IMG/VR virus record: IMGVR_UViG_3300037584_002078
Location: 1 to 29,724 of that record
Strand: one strand, 5' to 3'
DNA from: a virus
DNA length: 29,724 bases
Shown: piece after piece, positions 1 through 25,983 of the stretch
How the letters are laid out: the number at the start of each line of letters is the position of its first letter
Position numbering within the stretch: the stretch's first letter is position 1
Notes under the pieces: model-generated
Databases searched by the model: none
The model's input: only the letters and a program-made list of their open reading frames with translations
Told to the model about the DNA's origin: nothing
Position numbers and translations under genes: made by a program

Positions 1-159
1 GGTCACACACCCAAGGCCAAGCGACGCTTTGCCCAACGCGTTGTGGCTGTCGTTGAGTTCCTGCTCGAAGCCCCTGTGCAGATGACTGCCACGGAGTTGC
101 TCGCCTCCTTGGAGGAGCAGATTGCCGAGGATATGGTCGCCGAATTGACTGCGTCATGA
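1..159 (+). CDS. 3' end of an unidentified phage gene (partial)
   Basis: Reading frame 1 is open from the left edge and stops at TGA 157-159, leaving the last 52 residues of a protein whose start lies outside the window. The visible part is Ala/Glu/Leu-rich and probably helical, with a basic patch (KAKRRFAQR) followed by VVAVVEFLLEAP and an acidic end (LEEQIAEDMVAEL). No motif is recognised. It lies on the same strand as the small-gene array downstream but is separated from it by about 300 non-coding bases with structured RNA elements, so it may end the preceding transcription unit. Confidence 0.6.
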   Translation, partial: GHTPKAKRRFAQRVVAVVEFLLEAPVQMTATELLASLEEQIAEDMVAELTAS

Positions 160-204: not shown

Positions 205-233
205 TGTGGGACTGATTAGGATGTAGACCCACA
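205..233 (+). ncRNA. Hairpin with TGATTAGG loop, abutting tRNA-like element A
   Basis: TGTGGG (205-210) pairs perfectly with CCCACA (228-233), a 6-bp stem with a 17-base loop containing CTGATTAG at 212-219. The 3' side ends exactly where the acceptor-like stem of the next element begins (234), so the helices could stack. A second hairpin with a different stem but the same loop motif lies at 289-319. It is seen as DNA complementarity only; transcription is inferred from the flanking plus-strand genes. A processing signal, terminator remnant or protein-binding site are all possible; there is no U-tract. Confidence 0.45.
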
Positions 234-288
234 GGTGTACTTGGAGGACGCTATGCGTCGGGGGCTCGACTCCCCCTGCACCACACCA
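234..288 (+). ncRNA. Compact tRNA-like element A (no D arm)
   Basis: Three stems fit end to end. An acceptor-like stem pairs GGTGTA (234-239) with TGCACC (277-282). After the linker CTTGGAG (240-246) comes a hairpin GACGC/GCGTC (247-251/255-259) with a 3-base loop. A T-arm follows directly, GGGGG/CCCCC (260-264/272-276) with the 7-base loop CTCGACT. The sequence after the acceptor reads ACACCA (283-288), so a CCA-like end is encoded. There is no D arm and no 7-base anticodon loop, so this is not a normal tRNA. The layout recalls the tRNA-like domain of tmRNA, but no tag reading frame is seen. The same design recurs at 372-442. Confidence 0.45.
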
Positions 289-319
289 TTCGCGTGATTT
301 GATTAGGTAGCAGCGCGAA
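289..319 (+). ncRNA. Second hairpin with TGATTAGG loop
   Basis: TTCGCG (289-294) pairs perfectly with CGCGAA (314-319) around a 19-base loop that contains TTGATTAGG at 299-307. It begins immediately after the ACCA end of tRNA-like element A. The stem shares no sequence with the hairpin at 205-233, while the loop core is identical, which suggests the loop is the conserved part. CTAATCAG at 332-339 is complementary to either loop (8 bases with 212-219, 7 bases with 300-306), so a long-range or alternative pairing is possible. Confidence 0.4.
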
Positions 320-371
320 ACCTGTCGGGTGCTAATCAGCCACGGACAAGGAAGTCTACTTAATTGTAGCA

Positions 372-442
372 GGTGTGCTTGGAAGGAGGGGTCGGTTATC
401 TTCGGAGCCGTTATCCTCGGGGGTTCGATTCCCCCCACACCA
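372..442 (+). ncRNA. Compact tRNA-like element B (no D arm)
   Basis: This has the same architecture as element A. GGTGTG (372-377) pairs with CACACC (436-441), followed by linker CTTGGAAG (378-385). A longer hairpin runs 386-418: GAGG pairs with CCTC, then an internal loop, then CGGTT/AGCCG around the 8-base loop ATCTTCGG at 398-405. A canonical T-arm follows, GGGGG-TTCGATT-CCCCC (419-435). Relative to A, two acceptor pairs differ while pairing is kept (A-T to G-C and T-G to T-A). A 41-base spacing between acceptor and T-arm is normal for a tRNA, but no D stem forms. It could be a degenerate or D-armless tRNA, or a tRNA mimic. Confidence 0.45.
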
Positions 443-6746: not shown

Positions 6747-7528
6747 TGGAGTTTTCTCTCAAGCTTCAGGAGAAGACAGGCAAGAGTTATCTGTCATACA
6801 GCTCAGTCAAGAATGCGCTCACTGACATGCGTGCATTTGAACTGTACATGGCAGGTAAGCTGAAGAAGGAGTCTCCGGCTCTCACCTTTGGCTCGATGTA
6901 TGACATGATGCTGTTCGAGCCTGACAAAGCTAAGGCTACCTATCAGAAGATAGACCACGACGAAATCATGGAGAAGATGAGCGACAGAGTTAAGGCGCTC
7001 AAGAATCCTAAGAGTTCGTCAGAGTACAAGGCCTCAGTGCAACAGCTCAAGACTGACGCTATCGAAGAAGGCAAGCACCTTGTAGATGAGTCAGAGTGGA
7101 AGACAGCCTTCTTCATGGTGAAGAGACTGATTGACTCAGGCATCAAGGACGAGTACCTCAAGGGTGACTATCAAGTAGAGTTCAACGAGTTCATTGACGA
7201 CATCCCCGTGCGCGGCTTCTTTGATTGCCAAGGCCAGTACTATGTGTCAGACAGCAAGAGCACGAGGTCCATCCCGGGCTTCAGGTACGATGTAAACAAA
7301 TTTTCTTATGACATTCAAGCGTATATCTACACGCAGGTTGCGGGTCTTGATGACTTCTTTTGGGTTGCTCAGGAAAAGACGTACCCGTACCCGGTGGCTG
7401 TCTACAAGGCGAAGGAAGAGACGATTCTGAGAGGCAAGTTCAAGTTTGAACAGGGCGTCGAGAAAATAAAAGATTGGCTTTTCCTTGACAAACCCGTGGT
7501 CAATGACTACATTTACGAAGAAATTTAA
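6746..7528 (+). CDS. RecE/YqaJ-like PD-(D/E)XK exonuclease
   Basis: Probable 5'-3' double-strand DNA exonuclease that makes the single strands used by the adjacent ERF protein. The N-terminal part SYLSYSSVKNALTDM, then ALTFGSMYDMMLFEPD, matches the opening of RecE-like phage nucleases (PDDEXK domain DUF3799 type), although the usual His of the GxxxH position is replaced (MYD). Catalytic elements are visible: VRGFFD with D160, then YYVSDSKST with D169 and K171, and YDIQAYIYT with Gln191. The C-terminus holds an aromatic VAQEKTYPYPVAVY strand. Its start overlaps erf by one base. Confidence 0.82.
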   Translation: MEFSLKLQEKTGKSYLSYSSVKNALTDMRAFELYMAGKLKKESPALTFGSMYDMMLFEPDKAKATYQKIDHDEIMEKMSDRVKALKNPKSSSEYKASVQQLKTDAIEEGKHLVDESEWKTAFFMVKRLIDSGIKDEYLKGDYQVEFNEFIDDIPVRGFFDCQGQYYVSDSKSTRSIPGFRYDVNKFSYDIQAYIYTQVAGLDDFFWVAQEKTYPYPVAVYKAKEETILRGKFKFEQGVEKIKDWLFLDKPVVNDYIYEEI

Positions 7529-7545
7529 TTCAACATTCTATTCAC

Positions 7546-7800
7546 ATGGATAACAAACCAACCACAGACCGCGTGTTCATCGGCGATGTAACACAGGTCA
7601 AATCATCAGCTCGCCTCAAGTTCACCCTTGCCGAGTTGGAAGAGATGAAGAAGTACGCAACAGAGAAAGGCTCAGTCTATGTCTCAGTTGTGTTGACTCC
7701 AGACAAGGAGCGCTTCTCGAAGTCAAATGCTTGGGCATCAGTCTACGACCCACGTGCTGAGTCCGGCAAATCAACGAAGTCTTCGGACGTACCGTTCTAA
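7546..7800 (+). CDS. Small replication-block protein with SSB-like DVPF tail (84 aa)
   Basis: The first part (MDNKPTTDRVFIGDVTQVK) and a helix-rich middle (KFTLAELEEMKKYATEKG, SVYVSVVLTPDKERF) are not recognised. The end, KSSDVPF, closely resembles the C-terminal tip of single-stranded DNA-binding proteins (consensus ending D-I-P-F), which recruits exonucleases, RecO and primase. The protein follows the annealase and exonuclease genes directly. It may be a reduced SSB or an adaptor that borrows the tail; no full OB fold is identified. A G-rich hairpin follows the stop. Confidence 0.65.
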   Translation: MDNKPTTDRVFIGDVTQVKSSARLKFTLAELEEMKKYATEKGSVYVSVVLTPDKERFSKSNAWASVYDPRAESGKSTKSSDVPF

Positions 7801-11753: not shown

Positions 11754-11889
11754 CTCGTCGTATCAAGCGCACAACATTGGCATAGGAACTACTCCAGAAG
11801 AAAAAGAGGAGGTGAACCGCTACTGTTACGAGCAGTTCATCCTCCCCATTAAAGACTTGGACGAAGGGTTCTTTAAGTCTATCAGCTGA
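11689..11889 (+). CDS. Small hypothetical protein (66 aa)
   Basis: The last plus-strand gene before the strand switch. It starts inside the nuclease gene (65-base overlap) and its TGA stop lies within the palindrome at 11880-11891, sharing 8 bases with the end of the converging minus-strand gene. The sequence MKQTYQNCRCLRQKIDSLL has a CxC pair, and the rest is polar and helical (PEEKEEVNRYCYEQFILPI). No function assigned. Confidence 0.5.
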   Translation: MKQTYQNCRCLRQKIDSLLQSNSSYQAHNIGIGTTPEEKEEVNRYCYEQFILPIKDLDEGFFKSIS

Positions 11890-11891
11890 TA
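11880..11891. promoter_or_regulatory. Palindrome at the convergent gene junction
   Basis: TATCAGCTGATA is a perfect 12-base inverted repeat that contains the stop codons of both converging genes: TGA 11887-11889 on plus and, on minus, TGA read from 11884 to 11882. Its central position between the early and late transcription units could suit a protein-binding site, although too short for an effective bidirectional terminator. Coincidence is possible because two TGA stops overlapping tail to tail form part of the symmetry by themselves. Confidence 0.35.
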
Positions 11892-12385
11892 ACCTTTGCA
11901 CCACCCATGGCCATGCCAACCATGTCCTTTGGGTCACGCATCATCTTCATAGCTCCGCCTCCTTCGTACTCCATCTTGCCGCCCATGCCCATCTTGCTTT
12001 GCTTGTACTCAGCAATCATGGCTTTGGCTTCTGACTCGTCGACTCCTGCCGACTTCATAATCATCTTGACGACTTCCTCTTCTGGTGGCATCTCCTTCAT
12101 GCCGTCGAGCATCTTCATGACAGCGGCTTTCTTCTCCATCATGCCGCCTTCTTGATACTCCATCATACCACCCTTCTCCATATCCTTCTTCTTCATCATG
12201 GCGCCCTCCTCCATCATCATACGGCGCTTCTCCATCATGCCACCACCGGGCATCTTCTGTTCCTCCATCATGCCGCCTTCGGCCATCATTTGCTTTTTCA
12301 TGTGCCCACCACCGGGCATCATCTGCATTTCTTTATCCATCATGCCACCCTGTGCCATCATGGCCTTCTTTTTTCCTTGTTCCAT
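11882..12385 (-). CDS. Methionine-rich repeat protein (167 aa)
   Basis: About a quarter of the residues are Met (42 of 167). The first 85 residues hold about six imperfect repeats built on GGMM or GAMM followed by charged residues, for example GGMMDKEM, GGMMEEQKMPG, GGGMMEKRR, GGMMEYQE. The middle (MPPEEEVVKMIMKSAGVDES) is an ordinary acidic helix pair, and the end (GGGAMKMMRDPKDMVG) returns to Met/Gly. No signal peptide. Met-rich segments can bind Cu(I) or form amphipathic helices at membranes; similar low-complexity proteins occur near phage structural genes, and the role is unknown. It is the last gene of the late operon, preceded by a TATATTTG box. Confidence 0.65.
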   Translation of the reverse strand: MEQGKKKAMMAQGGMMDKEMQMMPGGGHMKKQMMAEGGMMEEQKMPGGGMMEKRRMMMEEGAMMKKKDMEKGGMMEYQEGGMMEKKAAVMKMLDGMKEMPPEEEVVKMIMKSAGVDESEAKAMIAEYKQSKMGMGGKMEYEGGGAMKMMRDPKDMVGMAMGGAKVIS

Positions 12386-14727: not shown

Positions 14728-15164
14728 CTCTTTGATTTTTCAATGGTTCTACCTGCGAAGTACGCACCAAATGCTGTGAGCATAAGGATTTCTAGCAAAG
14801 ATACATAGGAATCTTTTACGTTAAATGGCAGATTGTCAAGTGAATCGAGCACCATGGTTAGCATGAACATCGACATGAGAGCAATCAATGTAACTGGTCT
14901 GATGAGCTTTGCAAGTTTGACGTCGCTGCTCATGTCAGCCTTCCATCTTTCGCTGACGTTGTTCTGGAACTGCACCTCCGCATCGAGCATTGCCTTAGCC
15001 TCTGCCGGGTCAACACTTGGCTCGTTGTCAAGCAGGTTCTTTACGATGCCCAAGCCCCCTTGGTCTGGGAGCAAGTCAGCAACTTTGTCGAGGACTCCGG
15101 GTGCGGCCTTCTTTAGCCACGACCCAAGCTTGGTGTCCTTAATCTTTTTTCTTTCTTCCTTCAT
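14724..15164 (-). CDS. Holin, 3-TM (GTA-type) family (146 aa)
   Basis: Pore-forming inner-membrane protein that times lysis. A charged, helical N-terminal domain (about 1-85, with LKKAAPGVLDKVADLLP and DAEVQFQNNVSERWKADM) is followed by two hydrophobic helices, RPVTLIALMSMFMLTMVLDS (89-108) and YVSLLEILMLTAFGAYFAG (120-138), and a basic end. This matches the holin family first described for gene transfer agents (GTA_holin_3TM); the first amphipathic helix counts as the third segment. It overlaps the giant gene by 26 bases and the next gene by 4. No endolysin is visible here. Confidence 0.8.
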   Translation of the reverse strand: MKEERKKIKDTKLGSWLKKAAPGVLDKVADLLPDQGGLGIVKNLLDNEPSVDPAEAKAMLDAEVQFQNNVSERWKADMSSDVKLAKLIRPVTLIALMSMFMLTMVLDSLDNLPFNVKDSYVSLLEILMLTAFGAYFAGRTIEKSKR

Positions 15165-18100
15165 ACTGTTCTAAGTATTGTTTGTTGAATGAGAGCACAA
15201 GTCTGAGCATCTCCTGTTCTAGTTTGTCGACCTCTCTCGCCTTGAGAGCCGGGTCAATGTCTCTGTCCTTAATGGCCCTGATGTCTTTACGCATTGCCTG
15301 CAAGGCCTTGTCAACCTTTCTACCTTCCGATTCAAGCGCAGCAGCAGCTCGCGTTCTTGGCTCGTCGAGGTTCAAGTTTTCCCTAGCTTCGACTGCCTGC
15401 TTAACAGTAGTTCTGAACTTGTAGTAGTCAGCCATGTCTACGCGAGAGTTGTATGTGCCGTAGCCCACACGCACAATCGGCATCGTAGAGAGCACCTTAC
15501 CTGCCACCTCCTCTTTGTCGTCAGAGTACCCCTGCAGATGCTGCACCGGAGTCTCGATAGTCTTGTAGGTGTTCTTGAGGAACCTGTATCCACCACCACC
15601 GTAGTACTCGAAGGCATGCCAGATTTTGTCTGGAGACATGTCAAGGTATCCCTTCTCATACTCGTTGCCGTCTGTCACGTCGTTCAGGAACATGGTTACG
15701 TCACGGAGCCACTCAGGTGAGCGCGAGCCTAGCGAAGACATAGGCAGGTTCTGACCCGGTGCATTGTCCTTGTACACCTGAGTCCCGAAGTAACTTTCGT
15801 TCATGTAGATTTCTACGAGAGGTCTCAGGAACGTGGGGGTGCCTGCTTTACCAAGCTTGTTAAGTAGAGTGCTAGATTCGCCAAACGAGATTGGAATGAA
15901 GGAGTTAAACATACCTCCGACCATGAACGCGCCAGCATCTCCTACGGTTCTGATGCCAGTAGCCGCTTCGTATGACATGGTGCCCATGTTGTGGAAGATG
16001 TTGTATCCATAGGGCAAAGGAACCTTGATGTAGTCCTTGCCGCCAATCATCACAATCATGTTGCGCTCCTTGACGTAGTCAGGAATCTTCTCGTAGAAAG
16101 TTCTGCCGTCCTCGTCCTCATCAGAGATGGCTTGGTTCAGCGCAGCCTGAGCGGCAGCAAACAGCGTCATGCCCATGGCAATCTTCTGTGAGCTGTTGAG
16201 CGTTCTGTAGTATCCACCACGTCCGTTAGGAACCTTCTTGAGCTGCAGCATTGTGCGTGCAAACTTGGCTGTACCCTGAACGCCTGCGTTGAAGAACAGG
16301 TACAAAGCGTTAATCACAGAACCACCACTACCGCTTCTGTTAAAGTTGATGGTGAGCTCCTTGGCCAAGTACGCTGCCTTCTCCGCATTCATGCCTGCCT
16401 CTCTGGCCGACTGGAACACAGCAAATCTGATTGCGTTCTCAACCGCCATGTTGGTGTTGTTCACGTAGTCAGCGATTGCTTTGAGCCCCTTGACAGCAGT
16501 AACCCCAGCTCCACCCTCCTGCATTCTAGTCAGGGTCTCGAGGTCTGAGCGCAGTTTGTCTCTGTTCTTGGCGTATGGCCAATCAGTGATAGCTCCTGAG
16601 TCTTGGAACTCCTGCCACGCCTTGTACATCGGGTGGCTTGTGTCCTCAACGCCCTGCAAGTTTTTGTACAGGAACGCGAGAGATGGGAGGTGCTTCTTGA
16701 GTGTAGACTTGACAAGGTTCTCACCGAACGCTTGACCGCCCTCAATCTCCTGCTCAGCAAGCAGTGACCCCAAACCAAACTGCAAGTCGCGTGTGAAGTT
16801 GGCTACAATAAAGTCAGGGGAGTAGCTTGTAAAGGTGCTTGACAGGAATCTACCAAGGCCACGAATGGCATTGAATATCATACCGGGGACGCCCTCGGGT
16901 GACTTGAGGATGTTGTGCTTGTTGACTGCACGAGCCACGGCAGAGTTGGCAAACTCCATGAAGAACGACTCACCGTTGATGACAACCTCGACGAACCTGT
17001 CGTTGTTGCGCATCTCATCGCGGGTCATGCCACGGCGCTTGCCTCTCAGCACTGGCGTAGCATCCTTCGGTCCGTAAATTTTGTACAGGTCCTTGTCCGG
17101 GTTGTCAGCCAAGAGGTTGAGCAGTCTAGAGTTGGCAAGGTTCTTCTCGCCAGCCATGACTGTTTGGTACCGTCTCTCGAAGATGTAGTCAAGTGGGCTG
17201 TCAGCCAAGCTGGTACGACCCTCTGCTCTTCTGATTCCACGGAACACTCTTGCTTGGTGCATGTGCAGGTAGCCTGCCTCACGCGCCTCGCTACCTCCGT
17301 CCTCGTCAATGGCGAATCCGCTAAGCGGGACGTAGCTTGGGTACAACGCCTCAAGCTTATCGACAGTAGCCTGTGTCTCCAGCCCGTACTCTACAATCAA
17401 CTTGCGAGTCTCTGCTTGGAACTCCATCACCATGTCGTAGGCCTGACGCATTCCTTCACTGTCGAGCTCTTCAATCTCTCTGCGTGCCTGTTCGTCGGTC
17501 TTACCTGAGAAGTTGTCGTTCTCCAGTCTAGCCTCTACGTCAGCCAGCTCTTCTTGCAGGTCAGCAAGCTTCTTGGACGCTTTACGCTTGGCCGTGTCAG
17601 AGGTTTGCTCGTCGTTGATGAGCGCTGCCTGCTTGGCAATCGACTCCATGATAAAAAGCTTCTTGTTGCCGAAGCGCTCGCGCAACACAGTGTTACGATT
17701 CTCTGCGTGCATAGCATACAGGAAGTCGCTCAGCTCCTTGTGCGAGATACCGAACTTGTTCATGACTGAAGCTAGGTCCTCCATGAACATGTCTACACTT
17801 TGCAACCTACGCGATGCCTTACCGTCAAGAAGCGACAGCGCCATGGAGTAGTCTTGCTCCTGCATCACCCTGCCACCGATAGCCTTCTCGATGTCGCGCT
17901 GGTAGCGGATGGCTCTGTAGAACTTGTCGTACACAAACTCCATGATGCCGAGCATGGCTCGCTGTGTCTTGCTCATCTCAGCTTCCCTGTCGATACGAGC
18001 TGGTGGTCTCTCACCACGCAGAGTGTTGATGTCAGCGTCGTAGTCGTCGAGGAATCCCTGAAGCGGCTGCGCCTTGAGGGTTCTAGACTCAGCAGCCTCG

Positions 18101-21100
18101 ATAACTTTGTCTGCAGGAATAATGAGTTCGTTGAGTCTGTCTGTGTTTACAATGACTGCCTCCTGAACTCCTGTTCTACCTGACCCAACATTTTGTTCAG
18201 CCATCTCCATTGCTGGGTTACCCGTCTCGGAGAAGTAGTAGCCATCAAATCCTGCTTGACGAATGATTTCTGCAAACGCCATTCTGGAAACAAGGATTGC
18301 TTCTTTCAGGTCCGTACCCGTAAGCGAACCAACCCCTTCACCTTTGACGCTCATGACGTACGAAACCAAGGCATCAGTGGCTGAGGTTTCAACTCCTCGG
18401 TCTCCGTACATCAGATTGTACAACATCTCAATCGTTGACTCACCGCCGCCTCTTCCACCACGACCCAGTTGTATATTAGTGTCTCGCATTTTGCCTGCTG
18501 TCTCAGAAAGCAATATGCTTGTAAACAGCTCCGGGTTTATGCCGACAACGCTTACAAGTTCTGTTTCTCTAAATGTATTTTGACCCTTGGCGCGACGAGT
18601 AGCGTCAGCAATCGCTTTAATCGCAATCTCGCTATCGACGCTGGCGTCGTTCAGTTTGTTCAGAGCTCTCGTTACCTGAGCGCCAATGCGGAAGTTGTAC
18701 ATGTTGGCTAGGCGAAGACCGCTTGAGTCAACATACACAACATTCTTTCCGTACATAGCCGCCTTGTTTACATTACCTGTGAGGTATGTGCCAAGTCCGT
18801 GTAGTCCCGGACTAAAAGGTCCGAAGGCTAGTTTGTTAGAAAATTGCGTGAACTCTTTATTGGTTCCGTGCAACAAGATACCCGCTTCAGCAAGCGTCCT
18901 CCAAGTAGCCCCAGCATTTTTTCCCGACCCGGGCAGCGAGTCTATCGGCTGCGCCTTTACTTCTGTGCCGGGCTCTTGCGGGGCGCGGTATTTCTCAATG
19001 CCTTTAGAATCTGCTCTACTGACGGCAGTTTCCCGTTTTGCTTCAGCCGCGTCAAGGTTGACTCCAGCTGCCGCAAGTCTTTGTCTTGTATCATTGTCTA
19101 GGTCCATTCTCGAGGCGACGTTGTCAATCGCCATCGCATAGTTTTCACTCCGTGTGTTCGCACCCATGCTCCTCCACAGCTCTTGCTCGAAGTACCACAT
19201 GGTTGCCTGCAGTTCTGCAGTTGTCAGTCCAAGCTCATTAGCCGCCTGAGTCACAGCTTCGGCCTGAAGTCTGCGCTCTGATTCGCTACGAGGAACCTCG
19301 ACGATAGTCTCCCTACCGCTCACCGTGTCAATCATGGTGCCTGCGTATCTGTTCCAAGTTCTGTTAAACCACAGGTCAGATGTCAGAGACTCGCCCAGCC
19401 CCTCCATGTTGAGAAAGAAGCTACCTACCTTTTCTCCGAGGATGTACGAGCCCTTACGTCTACCGGGTGCAGGGTTCTTGTTAACCTTGCCCTTAGTGTC
19501 AGGCACGGACTTATTGAACTCTCTGAGCACCTCGATTGGTTGGTCTGTCGTAAGGAACTTGACCACAGCCTCAGGTGTTTTGAATCTCTCGAACAGCGCT
19601 TGAAGCTTGTCAAGCTGCTTAGCTACAGTCTTACCCCTAGTGGTGTAGCCAGTGGGCTTAGGGTATCCAGCCTTCATGTCCTTCTTGGCAATCTTGACGC
19701 GGAAGTTCTGTCCGTTTTTGTACTTGCTGTCTCGACCCAAGGCGTCTACACCTTGAACGATGAAGTGCGTTTTAGTTTCTTTAACAACTCTACCTGACGC
19801 TACTGACTTGCCCTTCTTGTCGACGAAGCTCATCTTGTCTCCTGCCCAGTTACGTGAGAAGTTGCCTGAGCGCTGCTGGTCGATTGGTGTGTTGCGCAGT
19901 ACGGCAGCCAGCGTAGTCATGTTGCCGATAGGGCTGTTGCCCGGAGACAGTACAGCAAGCAACGCTGTGCCGATGCTACCCATGGCCTCGCCCTGCAGGG
20001 CAGGGAACATAATCCCCATCTTCTGCTTGGCCTCCTGAATGTCCTCGGTGTACCACGTGATACCGCCAGTGCGTGCATCCTTTTGGTTCAGGTAGAACCC
20101 GGCCTCCTCGTACACGTTGTTGAGGAAGCGCGTCATCATCTCGCCTTCACTCTTCACAGGCTCACCTGCAAACTTGTTGAGTGCGCGAGCTACTTGAATG
20201 CTTTGCGTCAGCTCTCCCGGTGTCTCTGAGTTGATGGCATCAATGGCGAGTTGCTGTGCCTTGGTGACTCCGGTAACCTCAGGTGGGTCGACATCAGGCG
20301 GTGTGTCGTGAGTCCATCTCTCGTCGAACGTGTAGCCCTTCTTCTTCTCAATGTAGTTGATGAAGTTCTTGACGTGCTTCTCGTCCGTAAACTTTCTGCG
20401 TACCGTCCACTTACGACCCGTGTCCGTGTTGAACTGAATGGTAGCCTCGATGGCCTGAGCCTTGGTAGTGGTCCCGAACGCAGCGATGTACTCCTCTCTA
20501 ATCTGCTCAGGGGTCATGCCCGGGAACAGTACGTCGAGCTCGGCCAAGTCGTCGGCCTTCATCTCCTTGTCTCTTGTCTGGAGGTACTTCTCGTCTGGTT
20601 CCGGCTTAAACTGGAACTCCGCGTTAAACTGCCTGTCTTCTTCTCTTGCTTCCTCAATCTCCTTCTGAGTCATGAACTGCTCCTCCCTGAAGTCTTGCAG
20701 CCTTTCTACAGCTGAAGAGAAGAAAGTAAACAACTCAATGTCCGGCACTCCGTCCTTACCAAGCGCAAGCTCTTGGGTGGCTTGGTCTTCTGCAGGGCTA
20801 AGCTGGTCAAGGTTTGTGCGAGCCACACGAACCATTGATTCACCATTCTTGTATCGTGCTACAAAGCCAAACTTCTCGTAGTACTTAATAAGCTTCTTGG
20901 CTGCCGCCATGTTCTGCGTTTCAGTGCCCTGATAGTTTCTTGTGGGGTAGGCCATGAGCTCCACGTCAACGCCAAGCTCATCAGCCACCTCCATGGCCAT
21001 AGTCAGGAAGCGAGTTCCAAGTCCGGTGCCCCTGTTGTCTCCCTTGAGCAGCTTGCCATCTTTATCCATGGGCTTTGATACAAACCACTCGTCGAGTTTA

Positions 21101-24100
21101 ATTACCCGATTCGCATCGTCTACGGGTCTAAAGGTAAACTCGATGTGTCTGTCCGGTTGTCCGTCAGGAGTCTTGGCAATTTCATTGTCGACGTAAATCA
21201 TTCTGCCCTGACTCAATCCAGCCAAAATCCCTCTGTATCTAAACACACCTCCATCTTTCTTCCCTGCAGTCTTTGCAAGAAGCTCGTAAAAGCTGCCAAT
21301 AACTTGCCCATCCCCCTCCTTGATTGCCTTTGCATCATCCTCGGTGAACAAGGTGGCTTGGCGCTTGAGAACATCTGAAGTGTCTACAGCACCTTCCCCT
21401 CTGGAACGAGCCATGGCAAGACCCTCGTCGTAAGACTTAGCCCTGACGCCGTCCCCGGGCTTTGCGTCAAGCGCAGCCGCAGGGTCGTAAGCCATGAAGA
21501 CTAGGTCTGGTTTGTCACGCAGGGTTGAGTTAGGTGCATCCCATCCCTCGGGAGCCCTATCTACATCGAATGGGATTCTGGCCACAGGGACAAAGCCTGC
21601 AGCAATGTTGTTCTTTACAAGGTAGGTGTCGAAGCACTCGAGGTGGTTACCCCCATCCTCGATACGCTTACGCAGCATCTCAGCCTGCACCCCACGAAGT
21701 GGTACGTCCGGATGCTTGGTGAGTCCACCCATGTAGCCGTCCTTGTCCACGTAGGACACGACGCCCGAGCTAAGTCTGTTGTTGCCGACGTAGAACGTAG
21801 TGCCCTCGTCCATCATGCGTTGGATGGTCTCCTCTTTCAGTGGTGTTGTCTGACCGTCAACCCCCGTCCCCTTCTCTTTGTGTGCTGCGATTGCTTCCCG
21901 CATATTCCTTGCGATAGCCGCCACAGCGTATTCGTTGTTCTTGGCAGGGGAGATGTCGCCCTCTGTCATGCGAGTGCCAGCAGGTGAGTACCCACCGTTC
22001 TCGTCAGGACGTACAGGAACCCACATGTCCACACGCGCAGTGTTGCGCCACTTGGTGACCATGCCATCGAAGCCCTGCTTGCGAGCCTCGTACCCAATCC
22101 ACTCTGCTTGCCTGTTTCCGTCGAATGCAACGACGTTACCCGCATCCCTAAACGCCTTGAGCGCTGTGTCGTACAGGTTGAGTGGGTCCTTGAACAAGTC
22201 GTACAGCATTTGCGGTGGCACCGTAGCCTCGTAGGCCCGGCCAGTCACCATTCTCTCTTGGTCCTCAGGCTTGACGTAGAACATTGCAACCTTGTCACCA
22301 CGCTGGTCAGTGGTGTATGGCTGCTGACCAAATCTACGCGGGTCAATAAACCCACCCTCCAAGTCCTGTGGCCCCACATGAGTCAGCTTGACGTTGCCGT
22401 TGGCATCAAACGTCATTGCTTCCTTAGTCCAGTCACCTAAAACACTGGGTTCGCTCAACCTATCTTGTGCTTTTACTGTAGAATCAAGGTCGTCTGACTG
22501 CTGATGCGCTTGAGCTCTAGTCTGAGCGTTCCTGTGACGACGCAATTCGCGCCTGTTTAAGACACCTTCTATACCCAGTCCGGGTCTAAGTGTGCCTGAT
22601 GCGTCTAAAACGGCAGCAAGGGCCCCCTGAGCGCCTCCTTCACCCTCTGAGAAGTACTCTGCTGCGTCACGAAGACCGTTGGCTACGTCTTGGAGCACAG
22701 GTGTGTTGGTCATCTTAACCCCTTTTGCGCTCAGCGCTTGCTTCACAAAACGTGCAAAACCGCTTACGATTCCCTTGTGGAACTGAATGTCAATTTCCCC
22801 ATCGGCCATGTCACTAAACACCTCAGCCAAAAACTCCTCAGCCTTGAGCGCCTCAGATACGTTACCGTATTCGTTCACGAAATTGCCGTACTTGGCAAGC
22901 TGCGCTTTGGTCATGCCTCTGCGCAGGGCAGATGCCAAACGAATCATGGCTTCGCCACGGTTTACTCCGTCCTTGAGCATCTGACGGTACACCGATTGGT
23001 GAAATCCCTCGTGGTACCCTGTGTTTGTCTTGAGAGCAGGGGCGTAGAGGACTACAGTACCCCCGTCCCTAGATATGTGCATACCTCGAGAAAGCTTTAC
23101 TTTACTTGGCGACACCTTCCCTGCCTTGGCTACCTCGCGCTGAAACGCTTCTTTGCTGTTGACCAAGATGACCTCTGCGTCAGGGTTGTCTGCCTTGATT
23201 GCTTTAGCCATGTTGAACGCCCCGACGATGCCGTCACGAATCTGTTCTGCTGTAGCAAACCTAGTACCCTTGATTCCCTTGGCAAGGAGGCGAGATAGAA
23301 TCGTGTCTGTGTTGTTGTCAGTTAAGACAATCTTTCCTGCACCAGTGTTGCCCTGTCCCTCTGTTACGCTGTCCCACTCGCGGTCTACATTCAGGATGTC
23401 ATCCACAAGTCTTTCTACCTCTTTGTTGTTGCGCGTTTGCGCCTCCACGTCCATGTCAAATCCAGCGTTAGCCGACTCGTACTTGTTCTCAATCTCCAGC
23501 TTCTGCGCCATCAGACTGCGTACGTCATTGGCCAGCGCATCCAGTTGCGTCTGATTTGTCCGCCCCTCTGCTCTTGCAAGGTTTCTTGCTCTTTGACGCT
23601 TCTTAGAGATTTGTTGGTTGAGGTCAATGATAGATTGCATATCCTCAGCCTCCATCTGATTGTAAAAATCAATGTCTTTACGGACTAGTCTATTAGCGTC
23701 TTCTGTAATCTTAGTTATCTCAGCCATGATAGACTTCCTCTCTTCTCTAGAAAGGTCATCACGCTCAAGCTGCTCTTTCAAAAACACTGACCTGTCCTTG
23801 AGCTCAAGTCTGTCAAAGAGTGTGAACTTAGAACCGATAGCGCTAGCCCCTTTCGCCGCGATGTATGGGGACGCACCCACACCGCCACCAAGAAAACCTG
23901 CGAGTCCCGCATCAATGATTGCGTCAAAATTCCAGTACTCATCAATCGCCTCTTGCGCAGTCATCCTTCCGGACACCACCTCAGAGTTGACTCTATTGAT
24001 TTGGTCCAGCGTAGCAATAAGTCCCTCTTCTTTACCCTCTCCAATCCAAGCCCTTACCGCTTGTCCAGCTTCAGAATCAAAAATCTTTTTGACTCCATCC

Positions 24101-25983
24101 CTAACAGCCTTAACTCTTGCTTTTCTGCTAGAAGCAGTAAGCACGTCTTTAGTTAGGTCGATACCTTTCTTAATAGACTGCGTCTGAAGGTTCTGCAACC
24201 CCACGAAGTATCTGGTGACACCAGCTTCGATAATACCTGCCCTCACGCCTACCTCAATCGCTTCTGTTCCTGTAACGTCTGGTCTATTTGCGTATTCACC
24301 CGAAGTCTGAGACAAAGCGTCAACACCAAATACAGCAGCCATCAGGTTGGGTCCGCCAATGTAGTTGGCAGCGACAGCCTTAGTCATGTCGGGGGCTAAA
24401 TCGAAGATAAATCCCACTGTGTTTATTGCCGCCGCCTCGTAGTTTTTATCTACAAAGTTTGCCCAAGCACCTTTCTGTGCCTGCTCTTCACTCATGACCT
24501 TGGCAGAAATGAGCTCTGCTGAAACTTGACCAAGGCCTCCTGAGTAGTTGTAGTCTCTTGAGTAGACGTCAGCCATCTTGATGGCGTGCTCTCTGTCGGC
24601 CTGCAGTTTCTTTCTAAACTCTCTGAGCTGGTCCCCTGTAATGTTTTGATAGGCCTCTTTTCCTACCGTAGTGTAGTAGTTATTTTTTTGAACAGGGTTC
24701 AGAAAGTCTGGGCGCTGCAAGGTCTCCTTGGACATAGCCATGATTTCCCTGCCAGTAATGTTGTTGTAGAGAAGACGGCCAAACTTATTGTACGCCTCAT
24801 CGCTCATACCCGGCCCCCCGAGCTCGTTGATGATGTCGTCAACATCTGAGATAACCTCAGCAAGCTGCTCGTCACTGGCTTTTCCTTTGGCAAACATCAA
24901 TCCATCAAAATCTGCGATGCCAAAGCCAGTCCAAGCATTCTTAAATCGCTCAGTAATCCAGCTACCCTCCTCGATTTCCTTGCCCTGTTTGATTGCGTCA
25001 TACGCACCTTCCTTCTTCCCAACCCTGCCCGTAAGCTCATAGGACCTCATGCCTGACATTCCTGAGAGCGCAGCGGCAAAGTTTCTTTTCTCTGCGTTTC
25101 TAAAGGCGTAGTCTGCAAACTCGTCGAGGTTCATGCGCTCAACTCTTTCTCTAAAATCAGGCGGAATGCTTTGCGTGTACTGCTCCTTCAGGTCCTTAGC
25201 CATGTTCACAGCTTGCTCTCCTGACGCACTCTTCCCCGTCAAAAGCCTGACCATATCATCTTCAATCAGCATAAGACTCTTAGAGGAATCTTCAGCAAGG
25301 CGCTGGAACTCGTCGTCTACGGCTAGTGCAGAGTTGGCTTTCTCCTCGTCCATGAAAAAGGACTCTCCACCCGCAACCCTAGAAAGACGCTCTTTCTCTA
25401 CAGAGTCCATGTCGAGAACAAGGCTTGCAAGTTCTCCCTCAAAGAAAATTTGCTGCGCCTGCTCGGACTCAAACCCAAGAGCTTTTGCCTGCTCCGGGAT
25501 GTCTCGCACAACAGCAATGGCCTCTTCAACAGTCGTGCCAAAGTTCGGGACGGCATCATTGAAATCTGTTACAGGGATAGACGGTGCGGGCGCATCAAAG
25601 CGCAGCGCATCTGACTCAGCCTGCTCAGTGAGACCTAGGTCGAGAGGTTCCGGTAACTGTGGCTCTGCAGGCTCAGGCTCTGCTAGAACTGAAGCCGAAT
25701 CTCCAGACTCTTGTTCTGGTGGAGGAGCCGTAGCTGAGGTAGATTCCGTAGAAACCTCTTCCTGCTGAACAGCCGATACTGACGTATCGTCTTTTTTTTT
25801 TACACCCATCAAGGTGCCGAACTCATCAAGGCTTTTGTTGTATCCTGTCTGAGTGAACAGGTTGTAAGCATCCTGAAGAGCTTCGTCGTTGGAGTTGAGC
25901 AAGTTGACGAAATCGTCAAAGGAATTGTTGTATCCCTCCTGTTGGAACAGAGTGTAAGCGTCCTGTAGTGCCTGTTCGTTCAT
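15139..25983 (-). CDS. Giant polyvalent virion-ejected protein (3614 aa)
   Basis: One uninterrupted frame fills more than a third of the window. Domains seen in order: two tandem 30-residue repeats (1-60); a Pro/Glu/Ser linker (60-130); helical and hydrophobic stretches (500-720); coiled coil (725-870); a zincin metallopeptidase region with HEGFH at 991-995; an ADP-ribosyltransferase-like region (about 1195-1325); a CFDTYLVKNNIAAGF unit (1445-1500); a GNAT-like region with GDNRGTGLGTRFL and KKLIKYYEKFGF (1560-1725); an unnamed conserved domain with GEKVGSFFLNM (1940-2285); a second ART-like region, LLHGTNKEF and GLGTYLTGNVNKA (2365-2625); and a long helical C-terminus resembling LPD38 (2660-3500). 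Polyvalent proteins of this sort are packaged and injected with DNA to counter the host. Individual activities are predictions. Confidence 0.88.
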   Translation of the reverse strand: MNEQALQDAYTLFQQEGYNNSFDDFVNLLNSNDEALQDAYNLFTQTGYNKSLDEFGTLMGVKKKDDTSVSAVQQEEVSTESTSATAPPPEQESGDSASVLAEPEPAEPQLPEPLDLGLTEQAESDALRFDAPAPSIPVTDFNDAVPNFGTTVEEAIAVVRDIPEQAKALGFESEQAQQIFFEGELASLVLDMDSVEKERLSRVAGGESFFMDEEKANSALAVDDEFQRLAEDSSKSLMLIEDDMVRLLTGKSASGEQAVNMAKDLKEQYTQSIPPDFRERVERMNLDEFADYAFRNAEKRNFAAALSGMSGMRSYELTGRVGKKEGAYDAIKQGKEIEEGSWITERFKNAWTGFGIADFDGLMFAKGKASDEQLAEVISDVDDIINELGGPGMSDEAYNKFGRLLYNNITGREIMAMSKETLQRPDFLNPVQKNNYYTTVGKEAYQNITGDQLREFRKKLQADREHAIKMADVYSRDYNYSGGLGQVSAELISAKVMSEEQAQKGAWANFVDKNYEAAAINTVGFIFDLAPDMTKAVAANYIGGPNLMAAVFGVDALSQTSGEYANRPDVTGTEAIEVGVRAGIIEAGVTRYFVGLQNLQTQSIKKGIDLTKDVLTASSRKARVKAVRDGVKKIFDSEAGQAVRAWIGEGKEEGLIATLDQINRVNSEVVSGRMTAQEAIDEYWNFDAIIDAGLAGFLGGGVGASPYIAAKGASAIGSKFTLFDRLELKDRSVFLKEQLERDDLSREERKSIMAEITKITEDANRLVRKDIDFYNQMEAEDMQSIIDLNQQISKKRQRARNLARAEGRTNQTQLDALANDVRSLMAQKLEIENKYESANAGFDMDVEAQTRNNKEVERLVDDILNVDREWDSVTEGQGNTGAGKIVLTDNNTDTILSRLLAKGIKGTRFATAEQIRDGIVGAFNMAKAIKADNPDAEVILVNSKEAFQREVAKAGKVSPSKVKLSRGMHISRDGGTVVLYAPALKTNTGYHEGFHQSVYRQMLKDGVNRGEAMIRLASALRRGMTKAQLAKYGNFVNEYGNVSEALKAEEFLAEVFSDMADGEIDIQFHKGIVSGFARFVKQALSAKGVKMTNTPVLQDVANGLRDAAEYFSEGEGGAQGALAAVLDASGTLRPGLGIEGVLNRRELRRHRNAQTRAQAHQQSDDLDSTVKAQDRLSEPSVLGDWTKEAMTFDANGNVKLTHVGPQDLEGGFIDPRRFGQQPYTTDQRGDKVAMFYVKPEDQERMVTGRAYEATVPPQMLYDLFKDPLNLYDTALKAFRDAGNVVAFDGNRQAEWIGYEARKQGFDGMVTKWRNTARVDMWVPVRPDENGGYSPAGTRMTEGDISPAKNNEYAVAAIARNMREAIAAHKEKGTGVDGQTTPLKEETIQRMMDEGTTFYVGNNRLSSGVVSYVDKDGYMGGLTKHPDVPLRGVQAEMLRKRIEDGGNHLECFDTYLVKNNIAAGFVPVARIPFDVDRAPEGWDAPNSTLRDKPDLVFMAYDPAAALDAKPGDGVRAKSYDEGLAMARSRGEGAVDTSDVLKRQATLFTEDDAKAIKEGDGQVIGSFYELLAKTAGKKDGGVFRYRGILAGLSQGRMIYVDNEIAKTPDGQPDRHIEFTFRPVDDANRVIKLDEWFVSKPMDKDGKLLKGDNRGTGLGTRFLTMAMEVADELGVDVELMAYPTRNYQGTETQNMAAAKKLIKYYEKFGFVARYKNGESMVRVARTNLDQLSPAEDQATQELALGKDGVPDIELFTFFSSAVERLQDFREEQFMTQKEIEEAREEDRQFNAEFQFKPEPDEKYLQTRDKEMKADDLAELDVLFPGMTPEQIREEYIAAFGTTTKAQAIEATIQFNTDTGRKWTVRRKFTDEKHVKNFINYIEKKKGYTFDERWTHDTPPDVDPPEVTGVTKAQQLAIDAINSETPGELTQSIQVARALNKFAGEPVKSEGEMMTRFLNNVYEEAGFYLNQKDARTGGITWYTEDIQEAKQKMGIMFPALQGEAMGSIGTALLAVLSPGNSPIGNMTTLAAVLRNTPIDQQRSGNFSRNWAGDKMSFVDKKGKSVASGRVVKETKTHFIVQGVDALGRDSKYKNGQNFRVKIAKKDMKAGYPKPTGYTTRGKTVAKQLDKLQALFERFKTPEAVVKFLTTDQPIEVLREFNKSVPDTKGKVNKNPAPGRRKGSYILGEKVGSFFLNMEGLGESLTSDLWFNRTWNRYAGTMIDTVSGRETIVEVPRSESERRLQAEAVTQAANELGLTTAELQATMWYFEQELWRSMGANTRSENYAMAIDNVASRMDLDNDTRQRLAAAGVNLDAAEAKRETAVSRADSKGIEKYRAPQEPGTEVKAQPIDSLPGSGKNAGATWRTLAEAGILLHGTNKEFTQFSNKLAFGPFSPGLHGLGTYLTGNVNKAAMYGKNVVYVDSSGLRLANMYNFRIGAQVTRALNKLNDASVDSEIAIKAIADATRRAKGQNTFRETELVSVVGINPELFTSILLSETAGKMRDTNIQLGRGGRGGGESTIEMLYNLMYGDRGVETSATDALVSYVMSVKGEGVGSLTGTDLKEAILVSRMAFAEIIRQAGFDGYYFSETGNPAMEMAEQNVGSGRTGVQEAVIVNTDRLNELIIPADKVIEAAESRTLKAQPLQGFLDDYDADINTLRGERPPARIDREAEMSKTQRAMLGIMEFVYDKFYRAIRYQRDIEKAIGGRVMQEQDYSMALSLLDGKASRRLQSVDMFMEDLASVMNKFGISHKELSDFLYAMHAENRNTVLRERFGNKKLFIMESIAKQAALINDEQTSDTAKRKASKKLADLQEELADVEARLENDNFSGKTDEQARREIEELDSEGMRQAYDMVMEFQAETRKLIVEYGLETQATVDKLEALYPSYVPLSGFAIDEDGGSEAREAGYLHMHQARVFRGIRRAEGRTSLADSPLDYIFERRYQTVMAGEKNLANSRLLNLLADNPDKDLYKIYGPKDATPVLRGKRRGMTRDEMRNNDRFVEVVINGESFFMEFANSAVARAVNKHNILKSPEGVPGMIFNAIRGLGRFLSSTFTSYSPDFIVANFTRDLQFGLGSLLAEQEIEGGQAFGENLVKSTLKKHLPSLAFLYKNLQGVEDTSHPMYKAWQEFQDSGAITDWPYAKNRDKLRSDLETLTRMQEGGAGVTAVKGLKAIADYVNNTNMAVENAIRFAVFQSAREAGMNAEKAAYLAKELTINFNRSGSGGSVINALYLFFNAGVQGTAKFARTMLQLKKVPNGRGGYYRTLNSSQKIAMGMTLFAAAQAALNQAISDEDEDGRTFYEKIPDYVKERNMIVMIGGKDYIKVPLPYGYNIFHNMGTMSYEAATGIRTVGDAGAFMVGGMFNSFIPISFGESSTLLNKLGKAGTPTFLRPLVEIYMNESYFGTQVYKDNAPGQNLPMSSLGSRSPEWLRDVTMFLNDVTDGNEYEKGYLDMSPDKIWHAFEYYGGGGYRFLKNTYKTIETPVQHLQGYSDDKEEVAGKVLSTMPIVRVGYGTYNSRVDMADYYKFRTTVKQAVEARENLNLDEPRTRAAAALESEGRKVDKALQAMRKDIRAIKDRDIDPALKAREVDKLEQEMLRLVLSFNKQYLEQYEGRKKKD

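Follow-up and report, generated by a model that had tools for sequence, protein, structure and literature searches.

The window, an IMG/VR phage contig of 29,724 bases, starts inside the MLFTAT gene. The 3′ end of this gene occupies positions 1–159 (+), as judged from its translation and from a protein alignment of relatives, in which MLFTAT family proteins have 149 amino acids; the stop codon in the window is TGA, at 157–159. A hairpin at 205–233 (+; TGTGGG...CCCACA), identified by RNAfold and by comparison of relatives, abuts with its 3′ end exactly the 5′ side of the first of two tRNA-like elements (234–282 and 372–441, both +). The hairpin has the form GTGG...CCAC in close relatives and is absent from L005, L019, L028 and L065. 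Element 1 begins 74 nt past the upstream stop codon and element 2 more than 200 nt past it, both at one gene border. In the sequence, element 2 is followed by an A-rich leader of 23 nt (442–464, +), which runs up to the start codon of the next gene. The downstream gene (465–743, +) encodes 92 amino acids; it is syntenic in most relatives and has no match in Pfam or PHROG.

For the upstream MLFTAT protein, an AlphaFold model had a pLDDT of 59 and comparison with the PDB gave no useful match; the protein may be an RNA-binding autoregulator. The primase/helicase encoded in the window is similar to those of flavobacterial phages and carries a BT4734-like domain, so that the host of the phage is probably a member of the Bacteroidota. 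Elsewhere in the window, a very long frame of 3614 amino acids (15139–25983, −) has an LPD38 domain, as a phage polyvalent protein, and a low-complexity frame of 167 amino acids (11882–12385, −) is rich in methionine, glycine and lysine. A 95-residue antisense frame (172–459, −) contains GGIEPP and GGVEPP. Such motifs are the usual by-product of T arms read backwards, and we therefore do not take this frame as a gene.

Both tRNA-like elements have a 6-bp acceptor, a CTTGGA linker, a single hairpin and a canonical T arm. The acceptor of element 1 pairs GGTGTA (234–239) with TGCACC (277–282), and between the two strands lie the GG-containing linker CTTGGAG (240–246), the hairpin GACGC-TAT-GCGTC (247–259) and the T arm GGGGG-CTCGACT-CCCCC (260–276). 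Element 2 consists of the acceptor GGTGTG (372–377)/CACACC (436–441), the linker CTTGGAAG, again with GG (378–385), a hairpin at 386–418 and the T arm GGGGG-TTCGATT-CCCCC (419–435). As in tRNA (RF00005), the 5-bp T arm has a TTCRANY-type loop and is stacked on the acceptor. Element 1 is defined by sequence, RNAfold, covariation, a structural scan and homologues in the same place; element 2 by sequence, relatives, RNAfold, covariation and the structural scan.

The minimum free-energy structure predicted by RNAfold for each isolated element is the fold described above. Nevertheless, folding energy alone is insufficient proof of this fold, because the energy z-scores of both elements are unremarkable (only about −1.5) and because the minimum free-energy structure of a 331-nt context keeps the central hairpins and T arms and re-pairs the acceptors elsewhere. 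We scanned both strands of the window for a 5-bp T arm with a T-type loop, a 6-bp acceptor, a 5–9-nt linker and an abutting hairpin of at least 5 bp. The scan returned exactly two sites, elements 1 and 2, and none in 400 dinucleotide shuffles. The two compact tRNA-like elements proposed in the first-pass annotation are thus confirmed by sequence and by structural scan; their positions were right, and the 3′ ends, given there as 288 and 442, were slightly too long.

No U run was found straight after a GC hairpin (the longest T run in the 20 nt past an element is 0–4, and is 3 for element 1). An intrinsic terminator is ruled out, since there is no U run 3′ of the elements.

The element recurs in related phages. 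A search with the linker and T-arm pattern yielded seven related contigs, and a search with the upstream protein added five; of these, L013, L014 and L019 extend as far as the element. The element directly follows the MLFTAT gene in L003–L008, L013, L014 and L019; the gene that it follows in L028, L054 and L065 is a homologue with only ~25% protein identity. The acceptor of these last three is ATGGTA/TACCAT or ACGGTA/TGCCGT, as against GGTGTA/TGCACC, and the hairpin and T stem are altered alongside it. The linker reads CTTGGA in all but L019, where it is CACTGGTG, and the GG is always present. Because L019 was found by protein homology and not with the pattern, it confirms the element independently. 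The hairpin that separates the linker from the T arm ranges from 13 to 48 nt, with unrelated loops of 3 to ~40 nt. Across the loci of the window's own family (family A) the spacing from element to start codon is 21–24 nt, with the exception of L002; in the window this is true of element 2. A copy of the window's element 2 that has a single internal difference lies among other genes in L002, so that the tRNA-like unit appears to be mobile, transferring between phages.

Covariation proves the fold. In a structural alignment of 14 elements, 12 of the 17 pairs have changes on both sides, compared with a mean of 4.9 in 2000 column shuffles, none of which reached 12. The fold is kept by selection on RNA structure. 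The suggestion of D-armless, tRNA-like elements under such selection, made initially from the two copies in the window with covariation across homologues as its check, is now supported by independent homologues as well as by covariation. One of the two compensatory pairs on which it drew, A239–T277 to G377–C436, is a true double change; the other, T238–G278 to T376–A437, is one-sided.

A wider search, in which further patterns and a scanner blind to the linker sequence were applied to phage contigs, revealed the same fold in unrelated phages. Most of these copies are without the hairpin and consist of an acceptor, an 8–14-nt linker with GG, and a T arm. The stack of acceptor and T stem is 11–13 bp long, mostly 12–13 (7+5, 6+6 or 7+6). 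The copies usually lie −2 to +30 nt past a stop codon, and in these other phages the next start codon follows 12 to 93 nt after the element. Four copies are found at adjacent gene junctions in L202, one of them with a compensatory T-stem change, and four at gene junctions in L269. There are two differing copies each in L238, L288, L293, L040 and L059, and the copy in L251 is 9 nt past the stop codon that ends the major capsid gene (PF05065). In L202, L238, L241, L293 (copy 2), L025, L059 (copy 1) and L096 the acceptor begins within the stop codon itself.

Many loci were fetched for holding one copy, and the following counts therefore describe position, not frequency: structured pattern matches lie at most 40 nt past an ORF stop in 18 of 27 distinct cases, compared with 18 of 107 for matches without acceptor pairing (Fisher p ~1e-6), and linker-free matches with GG all lie −2 to +13 nt past a stop (12 of 12; four of these, from L269, were pattern-fetched, and the remaining eight, which are free of that bias, all fall in the same range). 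The linker-free scan with 12 control loop sequences gave zero such matches. This is a real, selected and recurrent RNA element. Stop-codon readthrough is rejected as an account of it: in L028 and in the fourth copy of L202, the frame that continues past the stop ends immediately.

A protein search for relatives of the L202 phage returned only itself. BLAST of the element region and of pieces of L202, L238 and L269 against cultured phages gave no match, and the scanner found no element in the cultured Bacteroidota phages lotta8-2 (whole), Panino, phi38:1 and elemoE (first 50 kb each). Our literature search found no report of repeated tRNA-like elements at phage cistron ends; as far as the literature searched shows, their recurrence on stop codons in unrelated phages is undescribed.

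In L238 (after 8828), L288 and L293 (after 3405 and after 4470), the tRNA-like elements are followed by another conserved structured stretch, which contains GGCAACGGC and has stems that vary. Separately, the 4-kb contig L105, which looks like a single-stranded RNA phage, has GGTCAG-TCTTGGA...TTCGATT...CTGACC near 2064–2135, 15 nt past an ORF stop. This occurrence may be chance; a cut there would cut the genome itself.

How do the elements compare with known RNAs? ARAGORN found no tRNA and no tmRNA, in agreement with the first-pass view that these are not canonical cloverleaves, and Rfam returned no family at gathering threshold. The best sub-threshold Rfam match of element 2 is tmRNA, at 19.4 bits against a threshold of 47. 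Compared with the tRNA cloverleaf (RF00005), the elements have no D arm and no kept anticodon loop. A decoding tRNA is ruled out because the central hairpin is freely variable, and absent from other members of the class, and nothing like a 7-nt anticodon loop is kept. The idea of a tRNA mimic, raised at the outset, has thus survived, whereas that of a D-armless decoding tRNA has not.

Like the tRNA-like domain of tmRNA (RF00023), the elements lack a D stem, carry TGGA where the D loop would be, and have the T arm stacked directly on the acceptor. Unlike tmRNA, the window elements have no G3:U70 pair (pair 3 is not a G:U in either acceptor, whichever numbering is used), no encoded CCA end, and no messenger part or tag frame, there being only 14–33 nt between linker and T arm. 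D-armless, anticodon-less tRNA-like genes were also noticed in genomes of Peregrinibacteria (L136, near 69–145, +), another Patescibacteria (L132, near 1455–1530, +), Dehalococcoidia (L175, near 2659–2730, −) and Bacteroidales (L129, near 7515–7585, −). All four have G3:U70 (alanine identity), three of the four have an encoded ACCA end, and they give sub-threshold tmRNA matches. Downstream of the genes in L136 and L132 come a promoter-like box and a short stretch that could pair with the central hairpin by complementarity.

Among the closest known systems are mascRNA and menRNA (Rfam mascRNA-menRNA), which form the 3′ ends of MALAT1 and MEN beta. Shared features are a non-decoding tRNA-like fold at the end of a longer RNA, stems that abut without linker nucleotides, two Gs that face the T loop, and an extra-long or compact hairpin that replaces the anticodon arm. 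With their conserved GG and T loop in a tRNA-like fold that does not decode, the elements fit the definition of mascRNA-like RNAs (PMC11693755). Unlike mascRNA, which has a reduced D arm, the window elements and the rest of family A have a linker only, and they lie between cistrons of a phage operon. Moreover, mascRNA is a known substrate of RNase P and RNase Z (PMC11693755), whereas processing of the window elements is putative.

Relatives whose sequence includes the region 5′ of the MLFTAT gene have a second tRNA-like element there, family B, which separates the start of that gene from a non-coding leader. It comprises a 7-bp acceptor, a D arm of 3 bp and 4 nt, a hairpin and a T arm, which is the arrangement of mascRNA, including the 3-bp D arm with its 4-nt loop. 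The MLFTAT gene is flanked by tRNA-like elements, and this would fit excision of its message. The leader itself is conserved, from ~1000 to 480 nt upstream of the family-A element, in L003, L005, L007, L008 and L019; a conserved leader of the same type lies upstream of the MQVRIY gene in L108 and L110. It matched no Rfam family. In addition to the mascRNA-like family-B element it holds a covarying structured stretch (GATACnnGCCAGCnnGGGATTG...TATCC) and the motif AGTTCTTTGACATATTG, which may be boxA-like.

Hairpins of an acceptor and a T arm serve as RNase P substrates, and phage RNAs are among the natural targets of the enzyme, M3 RNA, the C4 antisense RNA of P1/P7 and T4 gene 32 mRNA being the phage substrates listed (PMC11143913). 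In mascRNA and menRNA, which have a reduced D arm and no linkers, the two conserved Gs and the T loop are needed for both RNase P and RNase Z (PMC11693755). The parts kept in the phage elements (acceptor/T stack, T loop and two Gs) are those that RNase P and RNase Z read. These kept features, the literature and the placement 3′ of stop codons are together best explained by a cistron-end processing element; the covariation, and the same place 3′ of a gene homologue at only ~25% identity, support it too. We would give an even chance to the proposal that the elements are cis-acting cistron-end processing signals in the phage operon transcript, read by tRNA-maturation enzymes. Slightly short of even is our confidence in the broader proposal of a widespread new class of phage RNA element: a minimal tRNA mimic that does not decode, sits at or immediately past stop codons, and would serve phages of several unrelated lineages to recruit tRNA-maturation enzymes that cut or cap the ends of individual cistrons within a polycistronic mRNA. 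A cis-acting role at cistron ends was not among the proposals of the first-pass annotation.

In the proposed mechanism, the linker GG and the T loop would form a tRNA-type elbow on the ~12-bp acceptor/T helix, and by this elbow host tRNA-maturation enzymes would recognise the fold inside the polycistronic RNA. Cleavage would be made by RNase P at the 5′ side and/or by an RNase Z-type enzyme at the 3′ side. The upstream message would be left with a structured or tRNA-like 3′ end that may resist exonucleases, and the downstream gene would gain a short, defined leader. The central hairpin would be a tolerant spacer in place of the anticodon arm. Absence of CCA from the elements is no objection, because the phages' own tRNA-Arg gene has no encoded CCA either.

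In the window, a cut at 233/234 would spare both the stop codon and the terminal hairpin at 205–233. In L202, L238 and others the acceptor starts inside the stop codon, so that a 5′ cut by RNase P would remove the stop; copies that overlap a stop are compatible only with a 3′ cut, a mere exonuclease barrier or no cut, and they count against 5′ cleavage. Counting against processing more generally are the window acceptor, with 6 bp, an A-A mismatch and 11 pairs in total, and the opening of the acceptors in the structure predicted for the long context.

Mitochondrial tRNA punctuation and the t-elements of plant mitochondria offer a precedent: tRNA or tRNA-like folds stand at gene borders, and RNase P and RNase Z separate the messages. 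The phage elements are likewise tRNA-like folds at gene borders, and in the other phages these borders lie between co-oriented genes and the elements are repeated along the operon. The mitochondrial system is organellar and uses mostly complete tRNAs; the phage folds, by contrast, are minimal, lacking a D arm and often the anticodon arm as well, and are tied to stop codons.

The copies right after stop codons, the one behind the major capsid gene and the overlap of acceptor and stop would all agree with a structural barrier that works without cleavage. Such a barrier, in which the compact elbow fold halts 3′-to-5′ exonucleases and protects the upstream message much as REP hairpins or the tRNA-like structures of viral 3′ ends do, strikes us as unlikely. 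A plain GC-rich hairpin would suffice for this purpose, and the T loop, GG linker and 11–13-bp stack kept in unrelated lineages would be left unexplained.

More doubtful is a translational insulator, a fold near the stop that would recycle or block terminating ribosomes so that the next gene initiates independently. The elements do overlap or adjoin stop codons, and in family A the distance to the next start codon is a constant 21–24 nt. However, in the window the elements begin 74 and more than 200 nt past the stop, elsewhere the next start is anywhere from 12 to 93 nt away, and an insulator has no need of a conserved T loop.

Marginally less probable again is a small RNA acting in trans, the decoy that the first-pass annotation had also offered: the released fold would occupy tRNA-binding or tRNA-processing enzymes, or anti-phage nucleases. 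A tRNA-like fold without an anticodon would suit this role, and the same processing could release a stable small RNA. A decoy, however, could sit anywhere, and the fixed place of the copies after stop codons, at repeated gene junctions and in unrelated phages, argues for a cis-acting cistron-end or processing element instead. A remnant of a tRNA or tmRNA, or a phage attachment site copying a tRNA 3′ end, is very improbable: the T arm and acceptor do resemble a tRNA 3′ end and there is the weak tmRNA score, but both acceptor strands covary, several different copies occur per phage, and tyrosine integrase (PF00589) is absent from 13 phage records, which may be fragments, the same search being positive in 14 of 14 control genomes.

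Elements that process or punctuate transcripts through a tRNA-like fold are already known as a kind, and the phage cistron-end form would be a variant. If the cistron-end processing reading is true, there is tRNA punctuation in viruses of bacteria, and it would be a compact way to set message ends and stability in a long operon by means of host enzymes that the cell needs. The combination of a 12-bp stack, GG, T loop and stop codon, to which standard tRNA finders are blind, is a searchable signature for phage genomes. The elements also illustrate how much of a tRNA can naturally be lost and, should processing be proven, leave it readable to RNase P or RNase Z.
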